DNA from: Natronosalvus caseinilyticus
Lineage (GTDB): Archaea; Halobacteriota; Halobacteria; Halobacteriales; Natrialbaceae
Length of the DNA stretch: 64,000 nucleotides
Assembly (NCBI RefSeq): GCF_017357105.1
Contig: NZ_CP071596.1
Coordinates: 1,178,001 to 1,242,000 of the forward strand
Direction of reading: 5' to 3'
Shown here: in pieces, positions 3,087 through 36,556 of the stretch
Position numbering within the stretch: the first letter of the stretch is position 1
Layout: each line of letters starts with the position of its first letter
The notes under the pieces: model-generated
Told to the model about the DNA's origin: nothing
The model's database searches: none
The model's input: only the letters and a program-made list of their open reading frames with translations
Position numbers and translations under genes: made by a program

Positions 3087-3124
3087 GATTCGCACGCAGG
3101 GATTCGCACGCGCCGATTCGCACC
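3087..3124. repeat. Three GATTCGCAC motifs at 14-bp spacing
   Basis: GATTCGCAC occurs at 3087, 3101 and 3115, each 14 bp apart, just upstream of the T-rich box (3125-3130) that probably serves as the promoter of the radical SAM gene at 3160. Regular spacing suggests a binding-site array or a micro-duplication. Confidence 0.7.
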
Positions 3125-3159
3125 GCTTTTGACCCTCGAGACCGAATCGGTACTATTGA

Positions 3160-4155
3160 ATGATCTCGAAGGGCTGTGAGCAGTGTGCGAAAGGCGGCAA
3201 GATGGTGCTGTTCGTCTACGGTTATTGCGACCAGCGCGACTGCTTTTACTGCCCGCTCGGCGAGAACCGCAAGAACGTCACGGACGTCTACGCCAACGAG
3301 CGCCTCGTCGAGTCTGACGAGGACGTGGTCACCGAGGCCCACCGCATGGACGCGCTGGGCACCTCGATCACCGGCGGGGAACCCCAGGAGGCCCTCGAGC
3401 GAACCTGTCACTACCTCTCCTTGCTGAAAGACGAGTTCGGCGAGGATCACCACACCCACCTCTACACCGGCATTCCGGGGGGACGAGAGAACATGCGACG
3501 ACTCTCGGAGGCCGGCCTCGACGAGATTCGCTTCCACCCGCCGCTCGAGCAGTGGGGCGACCTCCACGGCACGGAGTGGGAGGACATCCTCTATATCGCT
3601 CGCGAGGAGGGACTGACCCCTGCCTTCGAGATCCCCGGTATCCGCCCCGAGATGGAGTTCCTCGACTTTCTGGACGAGGGCGCCGCCGACTTCTGTAACG
3701 TCAACGAGTTCGAGATGTCCCACGGCAACTACCGCCGGATGCAGGCGGAAGGGTTCGAACTCAAAGAGGGCCACATGAGCGCCGTCGACAACGACCGCGA
3801 CGGCATCCTCGAGGTGATGGGCGACCACCCGAAGGTCTACTTCTGCACCTCGGTGTTCAAGGACGCGGCCCAGCACCGGCGGCGACTCAAGCGGATGGCC
3901 CGCACGGTCCGCCGGGAGTTCGACGACGTCACCGACGACGGCACCCTGGTTTATGGAAAGACTCGCGTCGACCCCTCGAGGTTCGAGGCCCTCGGAGTCC
4001 CCGAGGAGTTCTACACCGTGAAGTCGAATCACGTCGAGGTCGCCTGGTGGCTGCTCGAGGAGATGATCGAGGCGGGCGACGTCGACGACGGCGAGATCGT
4101 CGAGCAGTATCCGACGTACGACGGCCAGGTGGTCGAGCGGACGCCGCTAGCGTGA
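3160..4155 (+). CDS. Radical SAM protein, COG2108-like
   Basis: A 331-residue radical SAM protein. The cluster ligands are in YGYCDQRDCFYC: C23, C28 and C31, a C-x4-C-x2-C spacing instead of the canonical C-x3-C-x2-C. A second CxxC pair (C6, C9) precedes it. The ITGGEP motif for SAM binding follows at about residue 69, and further barrel strands are clear. It resembles the archaeal COG2108 group related to pyruvate formate-lyase activase; the substrate is unknown. The C-terminal end YDGQVVERTPLA is repeated in a decayed form about 195 nt downstream. The ATG at 3160 gives MISKGCEQC, so no N-terminal extension is needed. Confidence 0.85.
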   Translation: MISKGCEQCAKGGKMVLFVYGYCDQRDCFYCPLGENRKNVTDVYANERLVESDEDVVTEAHRMDALGTSITGGEPQEALERTCHYLSLLKDEFGEDHHTHLYTGIPGGRENMRRLSEAGLDEIRFHPPLEQWGDLHGTEWEDILYIAREEGLTPAFEIPGIRPEMEFLDFLDEGAADFCNVNEFEMSHGNYRRMQAEGFELKEGHMSAVDNDRDGILEVMGDHPKVYFCTSVFKDAAQHRRRLKRMARTVRREFDDVTDDGTLVYGKTRVDPSRFEALGVPEEFYTVKSNHVEVAWWLLEEMIEAGDVDDGEIVEQYPTYDGQVVERTPLA

Positions 4156-4172
4156 CCGGCCGAGCGGACCGA

Positions 4173-4196
4173 GGCCGTTTTCGGGCCAGATTTTTG
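4173..4196 (+). terminator. Hairpin plus T-tract after the radical SAM gene
   Basis: GGCCG-TTTT-CGGGCC can fold into a short hairpin (4173-4187) and is followed by TTTTTG (4191-4196). This is 18 nt after the stop codon of the radical SAM gene and is a plausible intrinsic-type terminator. Confidence 0.45.
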
Positions 4197-4280
4197 TCGG
4201 AGCGTGGGCGGTGCGCGGTTCGGAACGTACAGAGCGAGTGAGAACCGCGACTGCGAACGGCGACGCCGTGAGCGAGTTCG

Positions 4281-4351
4281 AGCGTAAAATAGTGACGACG
4301 CGGTGCCCGACGAACGACGGGCAGGTGGTCGAGCGGGCACTGCCGGCCTGA
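4281..4351 (+). pseudogene. Decayed duplicate of the radical SAM gene 3' end
   Basis: In one frame this stretch reads RKIVTTRCPTNDGQVVER and then ALPA plus a TGA at 4349-4351. The genuine gene ends GEIVEQYPTYDGQVVER, then TPLA and TGA. The 15 bases CAGGTGGTCGAGCGG are identical. The copy has no start codon or upstream frame. It therefore looks like the remnant of a tandem duplication of the gene's 3' end. The whole gap 4156-4604 holds only this remnant, a terminator, a GTTTCAC/GTGAAAC inverted repeat (4383-4389 with 4404-4410) and an AT-rich promoter region. Confidence 0.6.
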
Positions 4352-4574
4352 CGTCATCTCGGTCTCGAGGCGGTTTTTCGGTGTTTCACCGCGTAGCACA
4401 CCAGTGAAACGCGTGTGGTTGTCGTCTCGTTCGCCTCTAGACTCGCAAAGTACGGTTCCACACCGATCTTCAAACCATAGTCGCGACCCCTCGGTTTGAA
4501 TGAGTGACGTTAAATTACACCACAAATATCCGAACTTTCTCCAATACTGTAATACCTCCAATGTTTGTATAAAC

Positions 4575-4584
4575 AATTATTAAT
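4575..4584 (+). promoter_or_regulatory. TATA box of the binding-protein/transducer operon
   Basis: AATTATTAAT, in an AT-rich stretch (4500-4590) that stands out in this GC-rich DNA, is centred about 25 nt before the ATG at 4605. It predicts a leaderless bicistronic transcript. Confidence 0.6.
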
Positions 4585-4604
4585 ACGGGCTCTAACGCAG
4601 GCGT

Positions 4605-5885
4605 ATGACTTCTTCCCCCAGGCGGGCAGTCCTCGCTGCCGTTGGTGCCGGCAGCCTGACCGCACTGTCCGGTTGTCTGAGTGACGTTCGCGAGTTCGTT
4701 CCCTCGAGCGACGGCCAGAGCCAGGACGAAACGAATCGAACGATCAAACTCGGCGTGATGCAACCACTGACGGGCGACCTCGAGGCGGTGGGGAAACCGA
4801 TTCGGGACGCGGCGATCCTGCCCGCAGAACAGGTAGCCGATTCCATCGACGCGGACGTCGACTACAGCGTCGCCGACACCGCCGCCGATCAGGTGACCGG
4901 CGTCCAGCGGGCCGTCGAACTCGTCGAGGCGGGGTACCCGATGGTGAACGGACCGGCCGCTTCGGACGTCACGTTGCAGGCGACCCAACAGGTCTTGATT
5001 CCGTATCGGGCAGTCTGTTGCTCGCCGGCGAGTACGACCCCGACAATTACGTCGCTGAACGACGGGGGGCTGGTCTTTCGGACGGCGCTCTCGGACTCCC
5101 TGCAGGCGGTCGTCCTCGCCGAACGCGCCGCGAGCGACCTGGGCCACGACAGCGCGGCGGTCCTGTACGTCAACAACGACTACGGCTGGCAGTTGAGCCA
5201 GGCGTTCACCCAGTCGTTCGAGACGGAACACGACGGAACGGTGACGAACCGGGTGCCGTTCAATCCCCTCGAGGACGAGGAAGACGACCGATCGTACGAG
5301 GACGAACTCGAGTCCGCTCGAGCCGACGACCCGAATCTGCTGGTGCTCATCGGCTATCCGCTCACCGGTGCGCGTATCCTCACCGACTTCTACGATGCCG
5401 GCGGTGAGGAGGACGTGCTGGTGACCGAAGGGATGCGGGATCCGACGCTCCACGAGGCCGTCGACTACTCCCTCGACGGCATCCGCGGAACGGCGCCGCT
5501 GTCGGCCGGTCCCCACGCTGACGAGTTCGCCGACCTCTTCACGGACGCCTACGACGCCGAGCCGGGCATCTTCACCGCCCACGCCTACGACGCGTCGGCG
5601 GCGCTGTTGCTCGCGAACGCGTACGCCGGGCAGAACGATGGGACGGCCATCCGGAGCGCGATGTACGCCGTCACGAGCGAGTCCGGCACGATCGTCACCC
5701 CAGAGAGCCTCGCCGACGGCCTCGAGACGGCGGCTGCCGGAGAGCCGGTCGAGTACCGGGGCGCCTCGAGTTCGGTCGTCTTCGATACGAACGGCGATAC
5801 GGTCGACGCGACCTTCGAGTACTGGGAGTTCGACGAGAGCGCGGACGGCGGCATCGCCAGTCTGGACGAGGTGAGTCTCGAATGA
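4605..5885 (+). CDS. Lipoprotein amino-acid-type binding protein for chemotaxis (BasB-like)
   Basis: A 426-residue secreted lipoprotein. The N-terminus has a twin-arginine pair (R6-R7), a hydrophobic run and a lipobox LSGC with C24 as the likely lipidated residue, so it should leave by the Tat pathway and be anchored outside the membrane. The body is a Peripla_BP_6 (Leu/Ile/Val-binding, Type I periplasmic) fold: LGVMQPLTGDL at the start and YVNNDYGWQLSQAF in the middle. No ABC permease or ATPase gene follows; instead its stop overlaps the start of a chemotaxis transducer. That matches Halobacterium BasB, which presents branched-chain amino acids to transducer BasT. Ligand identity is inference. 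Confidence 0.85.
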   Translation: MTSSPRRAVLAAVGAGSLTALSGCLSDVREFVPSSDGQSQDETNRTIKLGVMQPLTGDLEAVGKPIRDAAILPAEQVADSIDADVDYSVADTAADQVTGVQRAVELVEAGYPMVNGPAASDVTLQATQQVLIPYRAVCCSPASTTPTITSLNDGGLVFRTALSDSLQAVVLAERAASDLGHDSAAVLYVNNDYGWQLSQAFTQSFETEHDGTVTNRVPFNPLEDEEDDRSYEDELESARADDPNLLVLIGYPLTGARILTDFYDAGGEEDVLVTEGMRDPTLHEAVDYSLDGIRGTAPLSAGPHADEFADLFTDAYDAEPGIFTAHAYDASAALLLANAYAGQNDGTAIRSAMYAVTSESGTIVTPESLADGLETAAAGEPVEYRGASSSVVFDTNGDTVDATFEYWEFDESADGGIASLDEVSLE

Positions 5886-8383
5886 GCCGTCTCTCGCGAC
5901 TCGTTCCGGGCCCGATTCGCCGGCGGTACCTGCTCAAATTCGTCATCTCGATTCTCGCCGTGACGCTCGTGATCGGCGCCGTCGGTGCGGTCAGCTACGA
6001 CGAAATCAACCGAACGGTTCGCGACGACGCGACCGACCAGCTCGCCTCGACGGCCGAGTTGCAGGCGGAGGGAATCGGCGACTGGGTCGAGTCGATGCGT
6101 GTCCAGACGCGAACGACTTCGACCGACGAGACCCTGCGTTCCGAGGACGTGCAGGAAGTGCAGGGGGCGATCGTCGAATCGCAGGCGCGCCTCTCCGTCG
6201 ACGTCCGGGCGATCCACGTCGTGAACGCCGAGACAGGAACGATCGAGACCAGCACGAGTTCCCAGTACCGGGACGTCTCCCTCGAGTCGGTCTCGGAGCC
6301 CTGGACTGAGGCCGAGTTCGCGAGCGAACTCGGCAACGAGGAAGCGGTCTGGAACACCGAGGAGGCCTACGAGTCAGAGGCTCTGGGCGATCAGGTGATG
6401 GCCTTCGCCAGCCCAGTCGCTGGCGACGGCGACCGCGTGGTGGTGCTGATCGGCACCCTCGAGTACCGCGTCAACCAGCTCGACCAGCCCGGCGCGGCGT
6501 CGACGACGATGATCGTCGACGGCGACCGAAGTGGGGTGTTGGCGCCGGGATCGCTCGCGTTCGACGGCGACGACCTCGACGGGGAAGCCGTCGAAGCGGC
6601 CCTTGGCGGACGGATGACGGTCGCGAACGAGGGCGACTACGTCCGCGCGTACGTCCCCGTCGCTGACACTCAGTGGGTCGCCGTCTCAAGCGTGCCCACC
6701 GACGCGGCCTACGGCGTGGCGACGGACGTGGGCCAGAACGTCCTCGCGATGCTCCTGGTGAGCCTGCTCGCGCTGGGGCTCGTTGCGGTCGTCCTCGGGC
6801 GGCAGACGGTCGCCCCGCTCGGGCGCCTCCGGGATCGAGCGGCGGACATGGAACGCGGGGACCTGGAGGTCGACCTCGAGACGAACCGCGTCGACGAGAT
6901 CGGACAACTGTTCGTTGCGTTCGACAGCATGCGAACGTCGCTTCGCGAGCAGATCCGCGAGGCTGAGCGGGCGCGAACGGATGCCGAGCAGGCCCGCGCC
7001 GAATCCGAGGCGATGGCCCGTCACCTCGAAACGAAAGCCGACGAGTACCGCGTCGTGATGGAGGAGGCCGCCGACGGCGACCTCACTCGACGACTCGACC
7101 CAGAGAGCCAGAGCGAGGCGATGACCGACATCGCTCACTCGTTCAATGCAATGCTCGAGGAACTCGAGGAGACGACCGACGGCGTCAAGCGATTCGCCCA
7201 CGAGGTCGCCACCGCGAGCGAGCAGGTCACGGCCTCGAGCGAGGAGGTGCGCTCCGCGAGCGAGCAGGTCACGCAGTCGATCCAGGCGATTTCGGACGGT
7301 GCGGACAGACAGCACGAGGAACTGCAGGCCGTCTCCGGGGAGATGGAGGGCCTCTCGACGACGACCGAGGAGATCGCGGCCTCCTCGAACGAGGTCGCCG
7401 ACATCGCGGCGCGGACGGCGGAAACCGGACGGCGCGGGAAGGAAGCCGCCCAGGCGGCCAAAGACGGCATGGACGAGATCGAGGCCGAGTCGGAGGAGGC
7501 CGTCGAGGCGATCGACGCCCTCGAGGAAGAGATGGCCCAGATCGACCACCTGGTCGAGTTCATCTCCGACATCGCCAGGGAGACGAACATGCTGGCGCTC
7601 AACGCGAACATCGAGGCCTCCCGCGGCGGAACTGGCGGCGACGAAGACGGCGGGTTCGCGGTCGTCGCCGCGCAGGTCAAGGAACTGGCCGCCGACGCCA
7701 AGGAGACGGCCGAGGACATCGAGGAGCGCATCGAGTCGATCAGTTCTCAAACCCACGAGACGGCTGCCCAAATCGAGGGGACGGCGACGCGCATCGACGA
7801 GCACAGCGAGTCGATCGAGAACGCGGTGACGGCGCTCGACGAGATCGCCGAGTACGCCCAGCGGACGAACGACGGCGTTCAGGAGATCTCGGCGGCGACC
7901 GAGGAACAGGCGGCCTCGACCCAGGAGGCCGTGGCGATGGTCTCGAACGCAACCGAGATCTCCCAGGCGACCTCGAACGAGTCACAGCACGTCGCCGCCG
8001 CAGCCGAGGAACAGACCTCGGCGATTTCTGAAGTAACGACCTCCGCGAGTTCGCTCACCGACCAGGCGAGCCAGTTGAGCGCCGCCCTCGAGCGCTTCGA
8101 GACGAACGGTGCGAGCGTCGGGATCGACGGCCCTAGGGCTGGGGCCCTTCAGGACCCCGATACAGCCCACGCGTCGACCGCGTCGGACGAGCCGCTCGAG
8201 TTCGACGACGCGTCGGCAACGGAATCGACCGACGACTCGGCTGGTGACGAACCCGTGCAGGTGGGTGGAGACGGAGACGAAGACGGAGACGAACCCCTCG
8301 AGGACGCCGAGGATGAGCGCGAGACTGCGGACGACTCGGACCCCGACACCGAGGGGACGTTCACGTTCGGCGATACTAAATAG
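5882..8383 (+). CDS. Methyl-accepting chemotaxis transducer (BasT/Htr-like)
   Basis: An 833-residue transducer overlapping the binding-protein gene by ATGA (5882-5885), so translation is coupled. Order of parts: short cytoplasmic tail, TM1 (about residues 18-38), extracellular sensor of about 240 residues, TM2 (about 281-303), HAMP region (about 305-360) with a further helical segment, then a long coiled-coil signalling domain with the CheA/CheW tip ETNMLALNANIEAS. Glutamate-rich segments in the coiled coil are probable methylation sites. The tail after about residue 740 is low-complexity acidic (Asp/Glu repeats, DNA 8268-8330). It should relay binding-protein occupancy to the CheA kinase that controls the archaellum. 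Confidence 0.92.
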   Translation: MSRLSRLVPGPIRRRYLLKFVISILAVTLVIGAVGAVSYDEINRTVRDDATDQLASTAELQAEGIGDWVESMRVQTRTTSTDETLRSEDVQEVQGAIVESQARLSVDVRAIHVVNAETGTIETSTSSQYRDVSLESVSEPWTEAEFASELGNEEAVWNTEEAYESEALGDQVMAFASPVAGDGDRVVVLIGTLEYRVNQLDQPGAASTTMIVDGDRSGVLAPGSLAFDGDDLDGEAVEAALGGRMTVANEGDYVRAYVPVADTQWVAVSSVPTDAAYGVATDVGQNVLAMLLVSLLALGLVAVVLGRQTVAPLGRLRDRAADMERGDLEVDLETNRVDEIGQLFVAFDSMRTSLREQIREAERARTDAEQARAESEAMARHLETKADEYRVVMEEAADGDLTRRLDPESQSEAMTDIAHSFNAMLEELEETTDGVKRFAHEVATASEQVTASSEEVRSASEQVTQSIQAISDGADRQHEELQAVSGEMEGLSTTTEEIAASSNEVADIAARTAETGRRGKEAAQAAKDGMDEIEAESEEAVEAIDALEEEMAQIDHLVEFISDIARETNMLALNANIEASRGGTGGDEDGGFAVVAAQVKELAADAKETAEDIEERIESISSQTHETAAQIEGTATRIDEHSESIENAVTALDEIAEYAQRTNDGVQEISAATEEQAASTQEAVAMVSNATEISQATSNESQHVAAAAEEQTSAISEVTTSASSLTDQASQLSAALERFETNGASVGIDGPRAGALQDPDTAHASTASDEPLEFDDASATESTDDSAGDEPVQVGGDGDEDGDEPLEDAEDERETADDSDPDTEGTFTFGDTK

Positions 8384-8433
8384 GGGTCGGACCGGCTTCG
8401 AGTCCCTCCTCGGACGACGCTCGATTCTCGGGA

Positions 8434-9645
8434 CTACACCAGCACTTCGACCGCGTACCCGTGATCCTCGATGGCCTCGAGCAACTCCTCGACGTGGTCG
8501 TGGCCCCGCGTCTCGAGGTCGATCTCGACTTCGGTGTCGCTCATCTTGATGTCCCTCGACGTTCGATCGTGCTGGATCGCGTAGATGTTCGCTCGATGGC
8601 CCGAGATGATCGCCAGGAGTTCCTCGAGCGCTCCCGGCTGGTCCTTGAGGACGGTCTGGATCTTCAGGTAGCGGCCGGTTTCGATCAACCCGCGAACGAT
8701 CACCGTGGTGAGCATGTTGAGGTCGATGTTCCCTCCCGAGAGGAGCGGAACGATCACCTCGCCGTCGTCGTAGTCGAACGCCTCGAAGAGGATCGCCGCG
8801 AGCGGGACGGCGCCCGCACCCTCGACGACGGTCTTCGAACGCTCGAGGAGGTGGGCGACGGCCATCGCGATCTGTTCGTCGGTGACGGTGACGACCTCGT
8901 CGACGCGCTCGCGGATGACCGAGAACGTCTTCTCGCCGATGCTCCGGGTCGCGATCCCGTCGGCGATGGTGTCGACCCCGTCGATGGTGACGACCGATCC
9001 CTTCTCGAGGGACGCCGCGACGCTCGAGGCGCCCGTCGACTGGACGCCGACGACGCGGACGTCGGGTCGCTTCGCCTTGACGGCCGTCGCGATGCCGGCA
9101 ATGAGGCCGCCGCCGCCGATAGGGACGACCACGGTCTCGACGTCGGGGCAGTCCTCGAGGATCTCGAGGCCGATCGTCCCCTGGCCGGCCATCACGTACT
9201 CGTCGTCGAAGGCGTGGACGTAGGTTCGGCCCTCCTCGCGCTCGATTTCGTGGGCGCGCTCGGCGGCCGCGTCGTAGTCGGCCCCCGCGAGGACGACCTC
9301 GGCGCCGTAACTCCGGGTCGCCTTGACCTTCGCGATCGGAGCCTGCTCGGGCATGACGATCTTCGAGTCGACGCCCGCCCGCGTGGCCGCGAGCGCGACG
9401 CCCTGGGCGTGGTTGCCCGCGCTGGCCGTGACGACGCCGGCGGCCTGCTCGTCGGGCGAGAGCGTCTGAATGCGGTTGGTCGCCCCACGGATCTTGAACG
9501 CGCCGGTCCGCTGGAAGTTCTCGAGTTTCAGGTGGACCGCCGCGCCGGTCATGTCGGAGTAGGTGTGTGAGTACGTCAGCGGGGTGTGACGCGAGGTCTC
9601 TCGAACCCGTTCGCGGGCCTCGAGGACGTCGGCAAGCTCGAGCAT
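8434..9645 (-). CDS. ilvA: Threonine ammonia-lyase (threonine dehydratase)
   Basis: A 403-residue PLP enzyme that converts threonine to 2-oxobutanoate and ammonia, the first step of isoleucine synthesis by the threonine route. The PLP lysine lies in ENFQRTGAFKIRG (K51), the phosphate-binding glycine loop is VPIGGGGLIAG, and a single ACT domain fills about residues 325-403 (FLKIQTVLKDQPGALEELL region). One ACT domain and the length fit the short TdcB/IlvA form common in archaea. A TATA-like TTTACAATAC (minus strand, 9665-9674) about 25 nt upstream supports the ATG at 9645 as a leaderless start. Its 3' end lies 50 nt from the convergent transducer gene. Confidence 0.92.
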   Translation of the reverse strand: MLELADVLEARERVRETSRHTPLTYSHTYSDMTGAAVHLKLENFQRTGAFKIRGATNRIQTLSPDEQAAGVVTASAGNHAQGVALAATRAGVDSKIVMPEQAPIAKVKATRSYGAEVVLAGADYDAAAERAHEIEREEGRTYVHAFDDEYVMAGQGTIGLEILEDCPDVETVVVPIGGGGLIAGIATAVKAKRPDVRVVGVQSTGASSVAASLEKGSVVTIDGVDTIADGIATRSIGEKTFSVIRERVDEVVTVTDEQIAMAVAHLLERSKTVVEGAGAVPLAAILFEAFDYDDGEVIVPLLSGGNIDLNMLTTVIVRGLIETGRYLKIQTVLKDQPGALEELLAIISGHRANIYAIQHDRTSRDIKMSDTEVEIDLETRGHDHVEELLEAIEDHGYAVEVLV

Positions 9646-9750
9646 ACCTGCGAGTATCGGGCAAGTATTGTAAAGGATTGCTGTTGGCGACGGCCCAGCT
9701 GTTCGTCGATTCGGTCGGAGACATCAGCGCCGCTGGCCTCGTGTGGAAAA

Positions 9751-9774
9751 CGTGCTGTCAGAAGCGACAGCACG
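9751..9774. other. Perfect 9-bp inverted repeat
   Basis: CGTGCTGTC (9751-9759) and GACAGCACG (9766-9774) are perfectly complementary around a 6-nt loop. It lies in the 393-nt stretch between ilvA and the MATE gene, which has no convincing ORF. It could be a hairpin in a transcript or a dimeric operator. Confidence 0.6.
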
Positions 9775-9832
9775 ACAGGGAATACAGGGTATGCACGGCG
9801 TGTGACGTGCGACTGTATAGGAGGACCGGAGA

Positions 9833-9840
9833 TATATAAA
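9833..9840 (+). promoter_or_regulatory. Strong TATA box in the ilvA-MATE intergenic region
   Basis: TATATAAA is the best TATA match in the region and would start transcription near 9865, almost 175 nt before the MATE start codon. A second weaker AATAAA box (10006-10012) sits about 28 nt before that ATG, so the strong box may serve a separate RNA or a long leader. Confidence 0.5.
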
Positions 9841-9893
9841 TCTCATGCAGCCGGAGCGAAAGTGTAATCGATAGACGGGAGCGAGGTGAAACT

Positions 9894-9950
9894 GGCGTCT
9901 GACGGGTAGCAGACGGTTGTCGTTCGTGCCTCGGTGACACGTCAGACGCC
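9894..9950 (+). ncRNA. Candidate structured RNA or 5' leader element
   Basis: GGCGTCTGACG (9894-9904) and CGTCAGACGCC (9940-9950) form a perfect 11-bp stem around a 35-nt loop. Inside the loop TGTC/GACA can pair, and CGAGG just upstream (9882-9886) could pair with CCTCG in the loop (9929-9933) as a pseudoknot. It lies about 30 nt after the predicted start from the TATA box at 9833. No family recognised; it could be a small RNA or a leader of the MATE gene. Confidence 0.3.
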
Positions 9951-10038
9951 CCTTCTTGCCACTTCTACTGCGTGAACTAAACGTCGCGCAGCTTGCTCCT
10001 TTCGGAGGAATAAACGCCGCCGAGAACGGTTCGACCGT

Positions 10039-11439
10039 ATGGGCGCGAGCGGCTCCGGAGCCGAGTCGTCGGGGCGCGAGCGACTGCTTTCGGTCTGGAA
10101 ACGCGTCCTCGCGCTCGCGTGGCCGATCATGGCCGAGCAGACGACGCGGACGCTGATGCGGACCGTCGACATCGTCGTGACTGGCCTCTTTTCGCCGGCC
10201 GCCATCGCCGCTATCGGCCTCGCAGACCTCTACGCGCGCCTGCCGCTCCGGATCGGCCTCGGCCTCGGTGACGGCGCCATCGCGCTCTCGAGCCAGGACA
10301 CCGGCAGCGGCGCAACCGAAACTCGCGACGAGGCGATCACCCAGGCGATCCTCCTCGGAGCCGTCGCCGGCGTCCCCTTCGTGCTCTTCGGCGTCCTCCT
10401 CAGTGAATACGCGATCGCGGTCCTCGGCGCCGAATCGGCGGTCGTGGCGTACGGCTCGGTGTACCTCGCGATCATTATGGCCACCGCGCCCGCCCGCCAC
10501 GTCGGCATCATTGCCGCGAGAGCGCTGCAGGGAACCGGCGACACGATCTCGCCGATGGTCGTCAACGTCTTCGCCAACGTCCTCAACGTGACGGGGTCGG
10601 TCGTGCTGGGACTCGGCCTGTTCGGCGCCCCGCGCCTCGAGGTCGTCGGCGTCGGTCTCGCGACGGCCGGCGCCAACGTGTTCACGGCCCTGGCGTTGCT
10701 GGGAATACTTGCGGGTCCCTGGCGGGAGAGTTCGCTCGTCAGGCCGACCGACTGGATCATCGCGAAGCAACTGCTTGCAGTGAGCGCGCCGCGCATCGCC
10801 GAGGGCCTGATCGCGACCGCCATCGAGTTCCCGTTCAACTCGATCCTCCTCCTGATCAGCACGGAGGCCAACGCCGCCTACCAGATCGGCCGCCGGGTCT
10901 ACCAGCAGATCTCGAGTCCCCTCTCCCGCGGCTATCACGTCGCCGCGAGCATCGTCGTCGGCCAGCACCTCGGGGAGGGCGATCCGGACACGGCCCGCTA
11001 CGACGGCTGGGCGATCGCCGGCCTGGGGCTGGCGACGGTCGGCGTCATCGGGCTCGTCCTCGCGGTCTTCGCGCCCCGGTTCGTCCGGATCTTCACCGAC
11101 GACCCGGAAACGGCGAGCCACGCCGTCACCTTCGCTCGAGCCTACGGCCTCAGCGCGCCGTTCCTCGTCGTCTACGTCGCCATCGCGGGCGCGCTCCAGG
11201 GCGCTAGCGAGACGATCTACCCCCTGCTGGCGCGCTCGAGCGGTCTCTTCCTGTTCTATCTCTGTTTCTCCTACGTCGCCGCCATCTCGCTCGAGTGGGG
11301 CGTCCTCGGCGTCGCGACCGGCGTTTTTCTGTACTACCTCTGGGCGCTGTGTGTCGTCTCCTGGGCGTACCTCGAGCGCGACTGGGCGGCCAAAGCGGCC
11401 CGGATGATGGCCGAGCGCGGCAGTCGCTCGAGCGAGTGA
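10039..11439 (+). CDS. MATE family efflux transporter
   Basis: A 466-residue membrane protein with about 12 hydrophobic segments in two halves, the length and layout of MATE (NorM/DinF) exporters. The conserved start of the family (LAWPIMAEQTTRTLMRTVD) and the second-half equivalent (VSAPRIAEGLIATAIEFPF) are both present. Family members export cationic drugs and metabolites using Na+ or H+ gradients; a Na+ gradient is likely in a halophile, but the substrate is unknown. An AATAAA box about 28 nt upstream fits a leaderless start at the ATG. The gene converges on purU, with only 64 nt between stop codons. Confidence 0.9.
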   Translation: MGASGSGAESSGRERLLSVWKRVLALAWPIMAEQTTRTLMRTVDIVVTGLFSPAAIAAIGLADLYARLPLRIGLGLGDGAIALSSQDTGSGATETRDEAITQAILLGAVAGVPFVLFGVLLSEYAIAVLGAESAVVAYGSVYLAIIMATAPARHVGIIAARALQGTGDTISPMVVNVFANVLNVTGSVVLGLGLFGAPRLEVVGVGLATAGANVFTALALLGILAGPWRESSLVRPTDWIIAKQLLAVSAPRIAEGLIATAIEFPFNSILLLISTEANAAYQIGRRVYQQISSPLSRGYHVAASIVVGQHLGEGDPDTARYDGWAIAGLGLATVGVIGLVLAVFAPRFVRIFTDDPETASHAVTFARAYGLSAPFLVVYVAIAGALQGASETIYPLLARSSGLFLFYLCFSYVAAISLEWGVLGVATGVFLYYLWALCVVSWAYLERDWAAKAARMMAERGSRSSE

Positions 11440-28715: not shown

Positions 28716-28790
28716 GACTCGAACACTAAAGACGGGGCCGTTCCTTGTAGATTGCAACTGAACGACAGCACCCGTTCTGGAACTCGAGTC

Positions 28791-31700
28791 ATGGACACAC
28801 GAACCCGCGTCATATACGTCGACCCCGACTGCACCGATCGCGTCGCCTCCGCCGTTCGAGCAGTCGGTCTCGACCTCGAGTGCGTCGAGAGCGACGAGGC
28901 GTGTCTCGACCGACTCGAGTCCGCCGATTGCGTCATTACGGAGTACGACCTCGGCTCCGCCGCGAGAACTGGCCTCGACCTCCACCGAGCGATTCGCCGG
29001 CGGGCGCCGGACGTTCCGGTCGTGCTCTACACCGACGCCGGTACCGAAGCCATCGCGGGCGAGGCGCTCGCCGCCGGCGTCGCCGGCTACGTTCCGAAGT
29101 CACAGGGCGTCGAGACGCTCGTGACCCGCGTGCTCGAGGCGATCGTCGAGACGGAAACCGGTGCTAACCCGGACCTCGGTCACGGCTCCGATTCCGAACC
29201 CGACTCCGGTCTCAACTCAGACTCAGAACCCGAACCCGACCCCAACCCCCACCCTGACTCCAGCGACTCGTCCTCGCTCGCAAAAACGCACGACGAGCGA
29301 AACGAATCGTTCCTCGAGTCGTCTCCTGACCACGTCCACCTCATCGTCGAGCAGTCGCCGTTTGCGATCATCAAGTGGACTCCCGATTTCGAGGTCCGCC
29401 ACTGGAACGACGCCGCGGCCGACCTGTTCGGCTACACCGCGGCGGAAGCGATTGGCCGTCACGCGACCGACCTCGTCGTCCCCCGGGAGCAACGCGACGC
29501 GATTACCGACTGGTGGGCGACCTGGCTCGAGGGCGAGCCGAGTACGAATCACGGTATCTCGCGAAACGTCGCCAAAGACGGGACGTCGTTTCGGTGCGAG
29601 TGGTCCACGACGCCCCTTGTCGACGCTGACGGCACCGTCACGGGAGCCCTCTCGTTCGTCCGCGACATGACGTCGGAGTTTCGGCGGTCGCTCGCACTCG
29701 AGACGCTCCAGGAGACGACCCAGGCGCTGATGCAGACGAGTTCGGAGGCCGAAATCGGCTCGCTGGTCATCGACGCGACGGACGAGATTATCGACGACGT
29801 CCTCGCCGGTATCCGGGTCTACGACGAGGACGCGAACCGACTCGACCTGGTGGCGGTGAGCGATCGACTCGAGGAGCAAACGGTGCAGTTTACGCCGGTC
29901 GGTCCCGGCGACGACCCGCTGTGGTCGACCTACGAATCCGGATCGCCGGTCGTCATCGAGGACGCCTCCGCGGAGATGGTCCCCTACGACCTCACCGACG
30001 AGGTGGGCAACGCCGTCATCTACCCGCTCGGCGAGCACGGCCTGCTGACCGTCGCCGCCTCCGGGTCCGCCACGATCGAGGAGACCGACCTCACCTTGAT
30101 ACAAATTCTCGCGGCAACGGCCGAAGCCGCCTTCGACCAGGCCGCCCGCGAGCGCGAACTCGAGCGGGCGAAGACGGTCGTCGAGGCCGTCGGCGATAGC
30201 CTGTATGCCGTCGACACCCAGGGGACGCTCGTCACGGTCAACGACACGATGGTCGAGATCACCGGTTACGATCGGGACACCCTCGTCGGACTCCACGCCT
30301 CCGAAATCCTCACTGACGAGAGTTTCGAGCGCGGCGCCCGGGTGGTCGAACGGCTCGCTGCTTGCGACGGCGACGGCGGCAGAGACGAGGTCGCGACCTA
30401 CGACGTCGACATCGTCAGCGCGAGCGGGGACATCGTCCCCTGCGAGGTCAACACCACGCTCCTCGAGGACGAAGGCGACCTCTCGGGCAGCGTCGGCATC
30501 CTCCGGGACGTCACCGATCGAAAGCAGATGGAACGAGAGCTCGTCGATCATCGGGAGAAGATGGCGAAACTCCACGAGATCGCCTCCCGCCTCGACTCGT
30601 GTGAAACGCCCCAGGACGTCTACGACCTCACCGTCGAAACCGCCGAGGACGTCCTCGAGTTCGACGTCTGCGTCGTCGACCGCGTCGACGGCGAGTACCT
30701 CGAAACCGTCGCCGTCTCCTCGACGATCCACGAAGACGGGTTCTCGAGTCGCGCGCCGATCGATCAGGGCATCGCCGGGAAAACCTATCGAAACGACCGG
30801 ACGTACCGGCTCGACGACCTCAGAGCCGACGAGGAGGCAACGCCCGAACGCGACTCCTACCGGTCGGCGCTGAGTGCGCCGATCGGAGGCCGCGGAATCT
30901 TCCAGGCGGTCTCGACGGACGTGGGTGCGTTCGACCGGGCCGACCAGGAACTGACCGAGTTGTTGCTCTCGCACGTCACGGATACGCTCGACCGTCTCGC
31001 GTTCGAAACCCGGCTCAAGGCGGAACGCGACCGCTTCGCTGCGCTCTTCGAGAACGTCCCCGACGCGATCGTCAGCACGAAGCGCGTCCCCGAGGGCCCG
31101 ATCGTCGAGCAGGTGAACCCGGCGTTCGAGCGAATATTCGGGTACGAGGAGTCCGAACTGCTCGAGGAACCGCTCGATTCGTTCATCGTGCCTCCCGATC
31201 GCTTCGGGCACGCCCAGGAGATCAACGAGCGCGGGACGAAGGGAGAGGCTGTCGAGGCGGAGGTCAAGCGTCGGACGAGCGACGGGCTCCGCGACTTCAT
31301 GATGCGGGTCGTCCCGATGGACATGACCGGATCGACCGACCGCGCGTTCGGCCTCTACACCGACATCACGGCCCAGAAACAGCACCAGAAGCGCGTCGAG
31401 ATCCTGAATCGCGTCCTCCGACACGATCTGCGAAACGGCATGAACATCATCAACGGCTGCGCGGAGATGCTCGCGGAGGTCGTCGAGGACGAGGCCGACC
31501 GGGACTTTGCCGAAGCGATTCAGGAACGGGCTGGCGAACTCATCAGCCTCGCCGAGAAGACCCGAGCGGTCGAACGAACGCTGGATCGCGACGGCGCGGC
31601 GACCGGCCCTGTCGACGTCGTCGACTGCGTCGAAACCGCCCTCGACCGAATCGACACGGAGTACCCGTCCGTGGACGTCGACTGTACGCTCCCCGATCGG

Positions 31701-32087
31701 GCACACGCTCGTGCCGACGAACTCCTCGCCGACGCGATCTTCCACGTCCTCGAGAACGCCATCGAACACAGCGACCGGGCGGAACCGACGATCGAGATCG
31801 GTCTCGAGGTGGACGACGACGACACGCTCACGCTCACGGTCGCCGACGACGGCCCCGGCATTCCTGGGGAAGAGCGTGCGCTCTTGCAGGAAGACGAAGA
31901 GATTACCCAGCTCCGTCACGCCAGCGGGCTCGGGCTGTGGCTCGTCAACTGGGTGATCACCCAGTCCGGCGGTCAGTTGACCTTCCAGGAGAACGATCCG
32001 CGAGGCACCATCGTCAGGATGCAGATCCCGACGGCCGACGTGCCGACGCGCTCAGCGGCGATGGACGGGACGGCGGCGAGCGACTGA
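28791..32087 (+). CDS. Multi-domain PAS/GAF sensor histidine kinase
   Basis: A 1098-residue cytoplasmic kinase without TM segments. Order: degenerate receiver-like domain (1-120; the usual phospho-acceptor position in VITEYDLG is Glu51), Asp/Ser/Pro-rich linker (124-160), PAS (180-300), GAF (305-455), PAS (460-580), GAF (595-740), PAS (745-865), HisKA with H878 in NRVLRHDLRNGMNI, and HATPase (about 970-1085; DDGPGIPGEE, then GLGLWLVNWV). It should autophosphorylate on H878. Start chosen at the ATG 28791; a TTG at 28752 is possible. The nearest downstream genes are a second kinase and a CHAT-like protein. Confidence 0.9.
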   Translation: MDTRTRVIYVDPDCTDRVASAVRAVGLDLECVESDEACLDRLESADCVITEYDLGSAARTGLDLHRAIRRRAPDVPVVLYTDAGTEAIAGEALAAGVAGYVPKSQGVETLVTRVLEAIVETETGANPDLGHGSDSEPDSGLNSDSEPEPDPNPHPDSSDSSSLAKTHDERNESFLESSPDHVHLIVEQSPFAIIKWTPDFEVRHWNDAAADLFGYTAAEAIGRHATDLVVPREQRDAITDWWATWLEGEPSTNHGISRNVAKDGTSFRCEWSTTPLVDADGTVTGALSFVRDMTSEFRRSLALETLQETTQALMQTSSEAEIGSLVIDATDEIIDDVLAGIRVYDEDANRLDLVAVSDRLEEQTVQFTPVGPGDDPLWSTYESGSPVVIEDASAEMVPYDLTDEVGNAVIYPLGEHGLLTVAASGSATIEETDLTLIQILAATAEAAFDQAARERELERAKTVVEAVGDSLYAVDTQGTLVTVNDTMVEITGYDRDTLVGLHASEILTDESFERGARVVERLAACDGDGGRDEVATYDVDIVSASGDIVPCEVNTTLLEDEGDLSGSVGILRDVTDRKQMERELVDHREKMAKLHEIASRLDSCETPQDVYDLTVETAEDVLEFDVCVVDRVDGEYLETVAVSSTIHEDGFSSRAPIDQGIAGKTYRNDRTYRLDDLRADEEATPERDSYRSALSAPIGGRGIFQAVSTDVGAFDRADQELTELLLSHVTDTLDRLAFETRLKAERDRFAALFENVPDAIVSTKRVPEGPIVEQVNPAFERIFGYEESELLEEPLDSFIVPPDRFGHAQEINERGTKGEAVEAEVKRRTSDGLRDFMMRVVPMDMTGSTDRAFGLYTDITAQKQHQKRVEILNRVLRHDLRNGMNIINGCAEMLAEVVEDEADRDFAEAIQERAGELISLAEKTRAVERTLDRDGAATGPVDVVDCVETALDRIDTEYPSVDVDCTLPDRAHARADELLADAIFHVLENAIEHSDRAEPTIEIGLEVDDDDTLTLTVADDGPGIPGEERALLQEDEEITQLRHASGLGLWLVNWVITQSGGQLTFQENDPRGTIVRMQIPTADVPTRSAAMDGTAASD

Positions 32088-32130: not shown

Positions 32131-32139
32131 TTAATATGT
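32131..32139 (+). promoter_or_regulatory. TATA box of the second kinase gene
   Basis: TTTAATATG centred about 25 nt before the ATG at 32160, so the second kinase and the CHAT-like gene probably have their own leaderless bicistronic promoter. Confidence 0.55.
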
Positions 32140-32159
32140 GGGAATCGATCGCTATTATC

Positions 32160-34538
32160 ATGGATACCCCCGAAATGTCGCTCCTGCTGGTCGGTTCGCC
32201 GCCCTGCAGGGACGACCTCACGTCCGTACTGTCGAATGCGGGGTGGTCCCTACGAACCGAATCGACTGTCGAGGATGCGCGAGCGCGACTCGTGGCGGAT
32301 TCGTCGGACTCGGTCGACTGTCTCCTCGTGGCGACGGGCTCGCCCTACGAGACGGTTTCGGCGCTCGAGGAGGTTCGACCACTGGTTCCGATTCTGGCGT
32401 TGCTTCCCGATTCTGATTCTGATTCTATCACTGACCCCGATCTCGACCCCGTTCCTGACCCCGACATCCCCAGCGATCCCACCGCCGACCCAGCCACGAT
32501 TCTGGAGGCAGGGGCCACCGATTACGTCGTCCAGGCGGGGTCGATCGAGGCATGGGGTCCGCTCCTCTGTCGGCGACTCGAGGTGGCTCGCGACCGCGCT
32601 CTGGAACGCATCGCCTCGCGTGCGTTGTACGACGGGGCCCACGGAACGGACGCGGCACTTCACTGCCTGTTCGACGCGGAGTTACGACACGTCGTCGCCG
32701 TCGGCGGGGCGCTCGGTCGCGGCCTCGAGGCGTCGTCGCTCGAGGGCGTTGCGATCGACGAACTGGCGGCAGACGGGTCCGTCGACTCGGACGACCGCTC
32801 CGAGAGCGGCCTGGACCCGGGCGCCTGCACCCACCTCGAAGCCAACTACGTCGCCGCGCTTGAGGGAACCGCTCGGCGACGGGAATTTCGCCTCCGTGGA
32901 CGCCCGTACGCGGTCGAAACGACGCCCGTCCCGGACCTCGAGGGCCGGTTCGGCATCGCCCGGTATCGACCGGTGCCGGAAACGACGCCCCGGGAGACCC
33001 GGGACAAACTCGATCGCCTCTCGGCAATCGCTTCGGAACTCGACGAGTACGACGACGAGTCTCTTATCTGTCGACGGACGGTCGAAACCGCTGCCCAGGT
33101 CCTCGAGTTCGACGCGTGTTCGATCACCGAACGGATAGACGACGAACTCGTCCCGCTCGCGGCGACCGCGTCGGACCCATCACAGTCACTCGAATACCAC
33201 TCCGCCGACGACGGAATCGCCGGGGAGACCCTTCGCCGGGGTAAATCGATCGTCGTCGACGACATTCGCGACGACCCGGTCGCCCGATCGACCGACGATC
33301 GCTACCGGTCGGGGCTCTCGATCCCGGTCGGGGAGTTTGGCGTGTTCCAGGCGGCGTCGGTCGAGCCTCGCGCCTTCAGCGATACCGACCGCGAACTCGC
33401 CGAACTGCTCGTCTCCAACGCCACCCACGCGATCGAACGGGTTCGCTACGATCGGACGATCACCCGCGAACGCGACCGCTTCGCGGCACTCTTCCAGAAC
33501 GTGCCGGATGCGGCCGTCCAGTACGTCGTCGAGACGGACGAGTCCGGCGAGCCCAAACCCATCGTCGAAGCCGTCAACGCGGCGTTCGTGCGGCTGTTCG
33601 GCTACGAACCGGTGGACGCCATCGGCCAGTCGACGTGCGACCTGCTGGTCCCGGACGACGACGAGGCGCTCGAGGCCGCCCGGTCGCTCTACAACACCGT
33701 CGCCCAGGGCGAGCGCCTCGAGGCGGAGGTAACCCGACTGGGCGTCGACGGACTCGCCCCGTTCTTGCTCCGGAGCGCCCCCGTGGGAACCGACGGCGAC
33801 GACCAGCGCGGCTACTTCATCTACACCGACATCGGCGAACTCGTCGAACGCGAACGTCAACTCGAGCGCCAGAACGAACGCCTCGATACGTTCGCCTCGG
33901 TCGTCAGTCACGACCTGCGAAACCCGCTGTCTATCGCCAGCGGCTACCTCGAAACGGCCCTCGACACGGGAGAGCGCGAACACCTTCACGTCGTCGCCGA
34001 GGAACACGACCGAATGTACGACATGATCGAAGACCTGTTGCAACTGGCTCGTCAGGGCGACTCGATCGGCGACGTCGAACCCGTCGACCTCGAGGCCGTC
34101 GCCGAGCGCTCGTGGGACGGCGTCGACACCGCCGACGCGACCCTGTCGATCGAGTCGGTACCGGCGGTCGAGGGTGACGCCGACCGCTTACAGCACCTCT
34201 TCGAGAACCTGTTTCGAAACGCGGTCCTCCACGGGGGCGATCAGGTCTCCGTCACCGTCGGGACCTGCGAGAACGGCTTCTACGTCGAAGACGACGGTCC
34301 GGGCATTCCGGACATGATGAAAGACGAAGTCCTCGAGATGGGCGTCTCGACGGCGAAAGGGCAGGGTGGAAACGGGTTCGGGCTGGCGATCGTTTCCGAA
34401 ATCGCGGTGGCACACGGCTGGCGCGTCGACGTCGTCGACGGCGCCGCGGGCGGCGCTCGCTTCGAAATCTCGATTGACGAGAGTCGACTCGGCGGCCTCG
34501 AGTCGCTGACCGGCGGGGCTGGTGGTCGGGACAGATGA
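32160..34538 (+). CDS. PAS/GAF sensor histidine kinase coupled to a CHAT-like protein
   Basis: A 792-residue cytoplasmic kinase. A receiver-like domain (1-145) is split by an Asp/Pro/Ser insert (84-112) and lacks an obvious phospho-acceptor Asp (CLLVATGSPYE). A PAS-like region (150-270), GAF (285-430), PAS (435-560), HisKA with H584 in SVVSHDLRNPLSIA, and HATPase (650-780; DDGPGIPDMM, GFGLAIVSEI) follow. The GAF-PAS core closely parallels that of the first kinase (IAGET/IAGKT, QAASVE/QAVSTD), so the two are probably paralogues. Its stop overlaps the next gene's ATG (ATGA, 34535-34538). No response regulator gene follows, so the CHAT-like protein may be the output. Confidence 0.9.
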   Translation: MDTPEMSLLLVGSPPCRDDLTSVLSNAGWSLRTESTVEDARARLVADSSDSVDCLLVATGSPYETVSALEEVRPLVPILALLPDSDSDSITDPDLDPVPDPDIPSDPTADPATILEAGATDYVVQAGSIEAWGPLLCRRLEVARDRALERIASRALYDGAHGTDAALHCLFDAELRHVVAVGGALGRGLEASSLEGVAIDELAADGSVDSDDRSESGLDPGACTHLEANYVAALEGTARRREFRLRGRPYAVETTPVPDLEGRFGIARYRPVPETTPRETRDKLDRLSAIASELDEYDDESLICRRTVETAAQVLEFDACSITERIDDELVPLAATASDPSQSLEYHSADDGIAGETLRRGKSIVVDDIRDDPVARSTDDRYRSGLSIPVGEFGVFQAASVEPRAFSDTDRELAELLVSNATHAIERVRYDRTITRERDRFAALFQNVPDAAVQYVVETDESGEPKPIVEAVNAAFVRLFGYEPVDAIGQSTCDLLVPDDDEALEAARSLYNTVAQGERLEAEVTRLGVDGLAPFLLRSAPVGTDGDDQRGYFIYTDIGELVERERQLERQNERLDTFASVVSHDLRNPLSIASGYLETALDTGEREHLHVVAEEHDRMYDMIEDLLQLARQGDSIGDVEPVDLEAVAERSWDGVDTADATLSIESVPAVEGDADRLQHLFENLFRNAVLHGGDQVSVTVGTCENGFYVEDDGPGIPDMMKDEVLEMGVSTAKGQGGNGFGLAIVSEIAVAHGWRVDVVDGAAGGARFEISIDESRLGGLESLTGGAGGRDR

Positions 34539-36556
34539 TCGACATCTCGGTGATCGATACGACTATCCGTGCGACCGATCCGGCCGACAACAGCGTCGAA
34601 CTCGACGTCGTCGGCTGGGATCGCATCGACGATCACTACACGTTCACCGAACCGGTCGACGACGTGATCTCTGCTCGAGTGTCAGAGCTTGCGTTGCCAG
34701 CGAACTTCCCACTCCTCTCGGAAGTCTTCGCCGACGGTACCGCCCGTCGACGCGCCGCCATCGACGACGAAAGCCGACTCGATATCGATCCCGGCTCGTA
34801 TCGGCTGCTGATCGAGGCGCCGGTTCAGGTGACGATCCGGTTCGACGGCGAGGCCACGATCAGGTCCACCGACGGCGAACTCACGATTTCGTTTCCCCAC
34901 CCACAGCGAGTGAGCCTCGGCTTCACGACCTGGCTCAAACGCCCGCGAGAGACGATCACCGTCCCGCGAACGCCCGAGGGGATCGCGACGGGACTCTCAC
35001 ACATGTCAGCGTCGATTCGAGCGGCCAATTCGCAAAAAGTCACGGCCATGAACCGGCCTCACCCGCCGAGAATCCGATACGACGACTCGCTCGAGGTGCC
35101 GGACGCCGTTCGCAATCGCACCCCCGAAACCGGAATCGAACTGCGGATTCCATCCAGTCTCGAGTACCTGTTTCCCGCCGCCCCGCTCGTCTACTACCTG
35201 GGTGCCAGGATTCGCCTCGGACCCGGCGATCCCGTCCTCTCGATCGACGGTGCGGAACGGTATCGGTTCGAGTCGATGCCGGGATTCCAGTACCAGTGTG
35301 CGTCCCTGCTCAGGCGCGTGTTCCTGCTCGACATGCTGGTGCGAAGCGATCAGCACACCGACGTCCCACCCCAGGAACTCGACTTGTTCTCGCTCCTCGA
35401 GTTCGACCCTGCTACCTGCGTCGACTTCGAACCGGGTCCCCAGCTCGCGTACTACCTCGAGGCCGACTTCGAGCGAATCAGCCACGCCCTGCCGGACTGG
35501 CACTTCGTCGGATACGTCGAGCCGACGCTAGACCACGTCGAGGCGATCCCGTACCTGCTCCAGTACCTGGCGACGATCTATCACCCAGCGGCCGCGCCGG
35601 GATCGACGTCCGGCGGCGAGGCGCATCGACGCTGGCAACGGGCACCCGACACCGTTCCACGGCGGCTCGTCGAAGGCGGTCCGCACGGGAGCGCCGCGGT
35701 CTGGATGGCCGACGGCGCGCCGCCGGATCCGACGCTGTTTCGCGCGTCGCCGGCGGGCTTCGTCAATCGACCCGAGTACGTCGACCGCGCGGAAACTGCC
35801 GGAAGCGTCGTCGTCGTCTGCAACGATGCGAGTCGAACCGACGAGTGTGCGGCTGCCGTGAACCGCTACCGCACCACCGGCCCCGCGGACATCGACCTCG
35901 AGGTTCGCACCGACCTCTCGTGTGCCGACCTGCGCGAGCAATTCGAACGGGGAGCCGACTTCCTGCACTTCGTCGGCGACTGTCGAGACGGACTGTCGTG
36001 TCCAGACGGCACGCTGGCCCTCGAGACCCTCGAGCAATCGCACGTTCGACTCTTCTTCCTCGATGGGTACGATTCGCTCGAGGCAGGCGAGACCTGCATC
36101 GAACGCGGGAGCGTCGGCGGATTCGTCCGGGGAGCGGGCGAACTGAATCCGGCCTACCGCGAGCGACTGCTCGGACTGTTCGCCCAGGGACTCACCGTCG
36201 ACCAGACGGTTCGCTACGCCGCTCTCCCTGCCGACGAGCGAGGAGACGTTGTCGCACTCGGCGACGCCCATCAGCAACTCGCGAGAATGTTGAACCTCTA
36301 CTGCGTCCCCGCCGTCGTGGAGGCCCGTGACGCGCTCACCTACCAGGTGGAGGCCTACCCCTACATTCCCGAGGCGGGCTTCATCTGGCGACCGGGGCCA
36401 CTCAACGTCGAACCCCGACTCTGTGGCAACCCGTTTCACCTGACCATGTCGGGGGTACAGTTCGAGTCGCTGGTCGAGTTCGAGAACTTGCTGCCCATCG
36501 AGGGCGACACCGTCTACTGGGACTCGAGTCGGGGCCTGTTCTACCCGCTGTTTTGA
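34535..36556 (+). CDS. Large protein with degenerate CHAT (caspase-like) domain
   Basis: A 673-residue soluble protein coupled to the kinase upstream by ATGA. Residues 1-180 look beta-rich (PGSYRLLIEAPVQVTIRFDG); residues 200-400 are a middle domain with SSLEYLFPAAPLVYYLGARI; neither is recognised. Residues about 422-590 follow the CHAT layout: VVVVCNDASRTDECAAAVN, then ADFLHFVGD, then VRLFFLDGYDS, then GGFVRGAGELN and LLGLFAQGLTVDQTVRYA. In active CHAT proteases the second and third blocks read LHFAGHG and LNACDS; here the His is Asp482 and the Cys is Tyr512. It therefore looks like a pseudoprotease, perhaps a scaffold or sensor output. CHAT assignment is from pattern only. Confidence 0.7.
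   Translation: MIDISVIDTTIRATDPADNSVELDVVGWDRIDDHYTFTEPVDDVISARVSELALPANFPLLSEVFADGTARRRAAIDDESRLDIDPGSYRLLIEAPVQVTIRFDGEATIRSTDGELTISFPHPQRVSLGFTTWLKRPRETITVPRTPEGIATGLSHMSASIRAANSQKVTAMNRPHPPRIRYDDSLEVPDAVRNRTPETGIELRIPSSLEYLFPAAPLVYYLGARIRLGPGDPVLSIDGAERYRFESMPGFQYQCASLLRRVFLLDMLVRSDQHTDVPPQELDLFSLLEFDPATCVDFEPGPQLAYYLEADFERISHALPDWHFVGYVEPTLDHVEAIPYLLQYLATIYHPAAAPGSTSGGEAHRRWQRAPDTVPRRLVEGGPHGSAAVWMADGAPPDPTLFRASPAGFVNRPEYVDRAETAGSVVVVCNDASRTDECAAAVNRYRTTGPADIDLEVRTDLSCADLREQFERGADFLHFVGDCRDGLSCPDGTLALETLEQSHVRLFFLDGYDSLEAGETCIERGSVGGFVRGAGELNPAYRERLLGLFAQGLTVDQTVRYAALPADERGDVVALGDAHQQLARMLNLYCVPAVVEARDALTYQVEAYPYIPEAGFIWRPGPLNVEPRLCGNPFHLTMSGVQFESLVEFENLLPIEGDTVYWDSSRGLFYPLF

Follow-up and report, generated by a model that had tools for sequence, protein, structure and literature searches.

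Animal pseudocaspases such as c-FLIP use a dead caspase fold for regulation, as the proteins described here may; their domains and partners are different. In the bacterial pseudo-orthocaspases (PMC6426788; SyOC, PMC7889975), as here, the His-Cys dyad is lost and the gene retained. Deletion of SyOC in Synechocystis gives an oxidative-stress phenotype (PMC7889975), so dead caspase homologues can act, and can matter for stress survival. The pseudo-orthocaspases belong to the p20 branch and carry Tyr or Ser at the dyad (PMC6426788), whereas the proteins treated here belong to the CHAT branch, vary widely at those positions, and have a histidine kinase gene as their partner gene. A survey of prokaryotic caspase homologues, covering the p20 branch only, found no pseudo-variants in Archaea (PMC6426788). 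In the open-access literature (subscription journals lay outside the scope) no description of an archaeal CHAT pseudoprotease clade tied to histidine kinases was found, nor any paper on a CHAT domain in haloarchaea or together with an archaeal histidine kinase. Each of the ingredients (pseudocaspases, CHAT proteins, kinases) is already known; their combination in an archaeal clade of kinase-tied CHAT pseudoproteases appears to be new.

The gene that represents this clade here, P0001, lies in a window of 64,000 nucleotides (the whole stretch of DNA analysed) from Natronosalvus caseinilyticus, with two kinase genes before it (Table 1). Its start overlaps the stop codon of the kinase reading frame 32136-34538 in an ATGA at 34535-34538, and Pfam matches to HisKA (E 1.2e-14) and HATPase_c (E 1.7e-17) identify the product of that frame as a histidine kinase. 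The N-terminus of the coupled kinase (residues 1-130) is a pseudo-receiver-like stretch (a weak likeness over residues 18-94, KaiA_N E 0.049) followed by a linker rich in Asp, Pro and Ser; a similar linker follows the real receiver domain of the kinase further upstream. The latter, which is also found in the near relative G002, is possibly a further partner.

Table 1. Features of the P0001 locus (positions in the window) and other family members of the source genome (positions by contig)
Feature	Position	Strand	Remarks and evidence
Second histidine kinase	28752..32087	+	N-terminal receiver domain, PAS, GAF, HATPase; HisKA below Pfam cut-off
Coupled histidine kinase, 800 aa	32136..34538	+	GAF 311-434, PAS ~465-570, HisKA 583-640, HATPase 680-782
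P0001, pseudoprotease gene of haloarchaeal CHAT family, 673 aa	34535..36556	+	Intact ORF
P0001 N1 domain, residues 1-145	34535..34969	+	Almost wholly beta strand; AlphaFold2 secondary structure
P0001 M domain, residues 146-350	34970..35584	+	Alpha/beta; AlphaFold2, regional conservation
P0001 CHAT (caspase-like) domain, residues 387-580	35693..36274	+	Catalytically degenerate; model, Foldseek, profiles
P0001 D482 codon, catalytic His position	35978..35980	+	Homologue alignments
P0001 Y512 codon, catalytic Cys position	36068..36070	+	Homologue alignments
P0001 C-terminal tail, residues 585-673	36287..36553	+	Strands and helix mixed; AlphaFold2
Intact members, source genome (G000)	C1:1304712, C1:2974579, C1:3013640, C2:4537
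Second Cys-less gene, source genome (G000)	C1:3240869		Kinase upstream as well

Taken alone, the P0001 sequence makes a weak case for CHAT. It has zero domain matches in Pfam and NCBIfam (a receiver domain included), it falls short of the PF12770 gathering cut-off, and Pfam scans find no Peptidase_C14 (p20) domain in it or its relatives; the anti-phage defence models of PADLOC match neither P0001 nor any of five relatives. The family bridges the gap, because two intact members score above Pfam's cut-off for CHAT (PF12770; 24 bits), at 34.1 and 28.1 bits, and one member above the cut-off, G148:C7, matches P0001 strongly (E 2.6e-63 over residues 136-600). Of 43 intact members, 14 match PF12770 weakly. 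When family profiles are compared with those of archaeal CHAT domains (hhalign), both motifs fall in register, at a probability of 95% for the intact members; the Cys-less set by itself reaches 46% (E 2e-4). For P0001, the AlphaFold2 model (pLDDT 82.5 and pTM 0.86, from an alignment with 43 relatives) has gingipain R (1cvr) as its best PDB match in Foldseek (probability 1.00, E 1.6e-3), with separase (0.94) and procaspase-3 (0.82) lower down and no PDB match at E < 0.001. For the model of an intact relative, L051, the top match is activated SAVED-CHAT (8tl0, E 7.5e-6); gingipain, separase and caspases come next. A sequence-profile search of the PDB gives no credible relative, and the likeness is seen by fold comparison only. 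A caspase-like fold is established for the family, and P0001 itself, judging from its model, very likely adopts it. The alignment with gingipain R spans 392 columns and so perhaps takes in part of the M domain; the rmsd of 10 over this joint alignment means that the relative placement of the domains differs. Gingipain R is, unlike P0001, a secreted, active arginine-specific protease.

P0001 reads LHFVGD, ending in D482, where its intact relatives show HYIGHCE (His), and LDGYDS, with Y512, where they show FFLNACGSY (Cys); alignments of 51, 163 and 205 homologues agree on the placement. By its sequence the site is dead, and P0001 would therefore be a pseudoenzyme derived from the CHAT family rather than an active member of it. 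The original prediction, made from the window alone, had proposed a CHAT-like C-terminal domain lacking both catalytic residues in a gene translationally coupled to a histidine kinase, and all of this is borne out: by the scores of intact members, the register of the motifs, the fold comparisons (including that of L051 with SAVED-CHAT), the two substituted columns and the ATGA overlap. The modelled fold is not an unrelated one, nor do orthologues have an unrelated domain in its place; in the family alignments the intact members retain His and Cys. Two further domains toward the N-terminus were also predicted, and two are present, but they are not peculiar to P0001: N1 and M are family-wide and common to the intact members, and M carries most of the residues conserved throughout the family (P177, P178, Y221, L222, A224, D266, P320, W322). 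Set against the CHAT family at large (PF12770; SAVED-CHAT, TPR-CHAT/Csx29, separase), intact members share the AlphaFold2/Foldseek fold and the motif order HxxGH...LNAC, whereas P0001 is without both catalytic residues, has no recognised SAVED or TPR part, has N1 and M domains of its own, and is coupled to a kinase.

The haloarchaeal family has no Pfam or NCBIfam model of its own, and a first scan of the genome collection with P0001 as the only query gave no matches. Members are present in 134 of the 149 related genomes, frequently as multiple copies, and most of those sampled retain HYIGH...LNACGS. Among 205 non-redundant genes, 157 have both His and Cys, 36 have neither, one (L234, His/Thr) has His only, and 11 are partial; the Cys-less genes number 37, 36 of them haloarchaeal and the other, L170, from family f25 of the same phylum. 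Every haloarchaeal Cys-less gene (36/36) is clustered with a gene for a histidine kinase, upstream or downstream, and an adjacent kinase is found at 0 of the 157 intact genes (94 of them with full flanks, at least 900 nt upstream and at least 2600 nt downstream, in view), counts that are no frequency estimates because the intact set was enriched by a scan with a Cys-containing motif and some of the Cys-less genes added later were chosen on account of an adjoining kinase match. The association of dyad loss with a kinase was complete already in the first set, which was picked by similarity to P0001 alone. A script finds the kinase directly adjacent in 32 of the 36; of the remaining four, one is the second gene of a tandem pair that follows a kinase (L187), two belong to a triple tandem with a kinase at its end (L190), and one has its kinase just downstream (L191). 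The neighbouring kinases have GAF, PAS and HisKA in 10/10 scanned and HATPase in 8/10, the other two being cut by the end of the locus. This pattern among the sampled haloarchaeal genes, the Cys-less ones always clustered with a kinase and the intact ones never, suggests the recruitment of a protease into signalling as a partner that does not cut.

All 36 Cys-less genes from haloarchaea fall into a single clade (SH-aLRT 100; 25 of them in another tree) nested among the intact ones, so kinase clustering and dyad loss amount in effect to one correlated event, long retained, not to 36 independent ones. The clade is almost confined to family f1, with one genome of f7 in addition. Mean pairwise identity over N1, M, CHAT and tail is 0.34, 0.47, 0.62 and 0.31 in intact clade A, 0.34, 0.49, 0.49 and 0.27 in intact clade B, and 0.36, 0.41, 0.31 and 0.24 in the Cys-less clade. 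The CHAT region is thus the best conserved part in intact clade A (62%) but not in the Cys-less clade (31%), and only in the latter does its conservation fall below that of M (CHAT/M ratios of 1.34, 1.01 and 0.77 for clade A, clade B and the Cys-less clade). P0001 is under purifying selection: against L002, a 96% identical orthologue, dN/dS is 0.137 over the whole gene and 0.13 over the CHAT part, and three other Cys-less pairs give 0.29-0.32.

The best explanation, to which we give a probability of about 60%, is that P0001 is a pseudoprotease captured once as the partner of a cytosolic histidine kinase, its caspase-like fold kept as a non-cutting binding module. The ancestor would have been an active haloarchaeal CHAT cysteine peptidase, as its intact relatives presumably still are; a single coupling event would have tied one copy of the gene to a cytosolic GAF-PAS histidine kinase, and that copy would have lost the catalytic dyad. 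Kinase and pseudoprotease would sit in a physical complex, in which the shared N1 and M domains may bind some partner or ligand, possibly together with the degenerate CHAT fold. Such binding might tune the kinase, or the state of the kinase might tune binding by the pseudoprotease. The observations behind this explanation are family membership, the dead site, the fold (at moderate scores), the single origin, the clustering with kinases across the sample, selection, and the coexisting paralogues. Against it, co-transcribed genes need not bind each other, the Cys-less clade is found almost only in f1, and most of the module is lost in G002. The original prediction went beyond the evidence in calling P0001 the output of a two-component kinase: the kinase lies downstream in several relatives, and P0001 has no receiver or other Pfam domain, which leaves a phosphorelay to it unsupported. 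The roles it offered for P0001, as scaffold, decoy or partner of an active protease, stand as hypotheses. A conserved archaeal pseudoprotease clade in the CHAT branch would make a clean case of a protease turned signalling partner.

The intact paralogues may be partners of another kind. The source genome has six family members, P0001, the second Cys-less gene and four with His and Cys, so that intact relatives of P0001 do occur elsewhere in the same genome, as had been supposed. An intact copy is present in 23/23 of the haloarchaeal genomes examined that have a Cys-less copy. The pseudoprotease might accordingly regulate in trans, pairing with intact CHAT proteases or competing with them for a substrate or activator, with the kinase setting the amount that is free; c-FLIP regulates caspase-8 in such a fashion. 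It would fit this alternative that the shared N1 and M domains keep their conservation as the CHAT part relaxes. Coexistence is expected anyway, however, given how common the intact core gene is in these archaea, and neither a shared locus nor structural support for mixed oligomers speaks for regulation in trans, which we consider rather unlikely. The status of a core gene follows from steady neighbours: over the 24 loci of intact clade A compared, L051 among them, the upstream neighbour is glyA (serine hydroxymethyltransferase) in 22, mostly in opposite orientation, and the downstream neighbour a TbsP-type regulator in 23, so the gene should be findable by position in model haloarchaea. It is present in Halogranum, Halobium, Haloprofundus and Halobaculum, genera near Haloferax. 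Caspase-like activity has been measured in Haloferax volcanii, the gene being unknown (PMC3615174), and the widespread intact family is a testable candidate for the source of this haloarchaeal caspase-type activity. A larger scheme of caspase/CHAT signalling, in which kinase-bound pseudoproteases would gate the intact core CHAT proteases and these might account for the archaeal caspase-like activity that still lacks a source, is unlikely. L135 (C2:4537) and L136 (C1:3013640) in the source genome are close intact copies on short tree branches, one per contig; they go back to a recent duplication or to transfer from one replicon to the other. Intact CHAT family members are mostly annotated "hypothetical protein" in those plasmid records that were examined. 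Spread by viruses was considered and rejected, as phage records gave no match and a scan of viral contigs no relative.

Kinase and pseudoprotease may also be co-transcribed without acting together, sharing an operon and its regulation and making no contact. The kinase may stand upstream or downstream, at a spacing from the ATGA overlap to about 200 nt, which would suit such an arrangement, but pairing with the same type of kinase persists across strongly diverged members and is absent from the 157 intact ones, and we judge mere co-transcription improbable. A non-canonical enzyme, its site reshaped for other chemistry by way of, for example, H478 and C489, is very unlikely: these two residues are indeed retained in the Cys-less clade, but they and several conserved glycines are kept equally in the intact group and are probably structural, the residues at both former dyad positions have diversified widely, and the whole CHAT part is less conserved in the Cys-less clade. 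That P0001 is a decaying gene without function is scarcely credible, for all the reduced CHAT conservation and the deletion in G002, since frames are intact in nearly all members, dN/dS of 0.14-0.32 in four Cys-less pairs disfavours it, and the clade is old and diverse, with up to five or more copies per genome.

Several individual loci deserve mention. In G002, of the same genus (L196, G002:C1:1008000-1020000; 8117-9069), about 181 aa of the coupled kinase are left, and the pseudoprotease is reduced to residues 487-673; a deletion has taken most of the module, which is thus dispensable there. In three relatives an in-frame TGA raised the question of selenocysteine, which was rejected: at each locus the reading frame runs uninterrupted through the full length of the family profile, and the TGA is therefore a normal stop near the C-terminus. 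L190 (G017) has three Cys-less copies in tandem, from about 3103 to 10589 in locus coordinates, and then one kinase, and L187 (G073) two tandem copies behind one kinase. L234 (G003), with Cys replaced by Thr, is the sole kinase-coupled member to keep His; as it nests among the Cys-less members, its His may have been kept throughout or regained later. L170, L171 and L172, from family f25 outside the order, are distant non-haloarchaeal members, two of them with His and Cys; L170 has Arg/Asp at the dyad and no kinase beside it, and is possibly an independent dyad loss.
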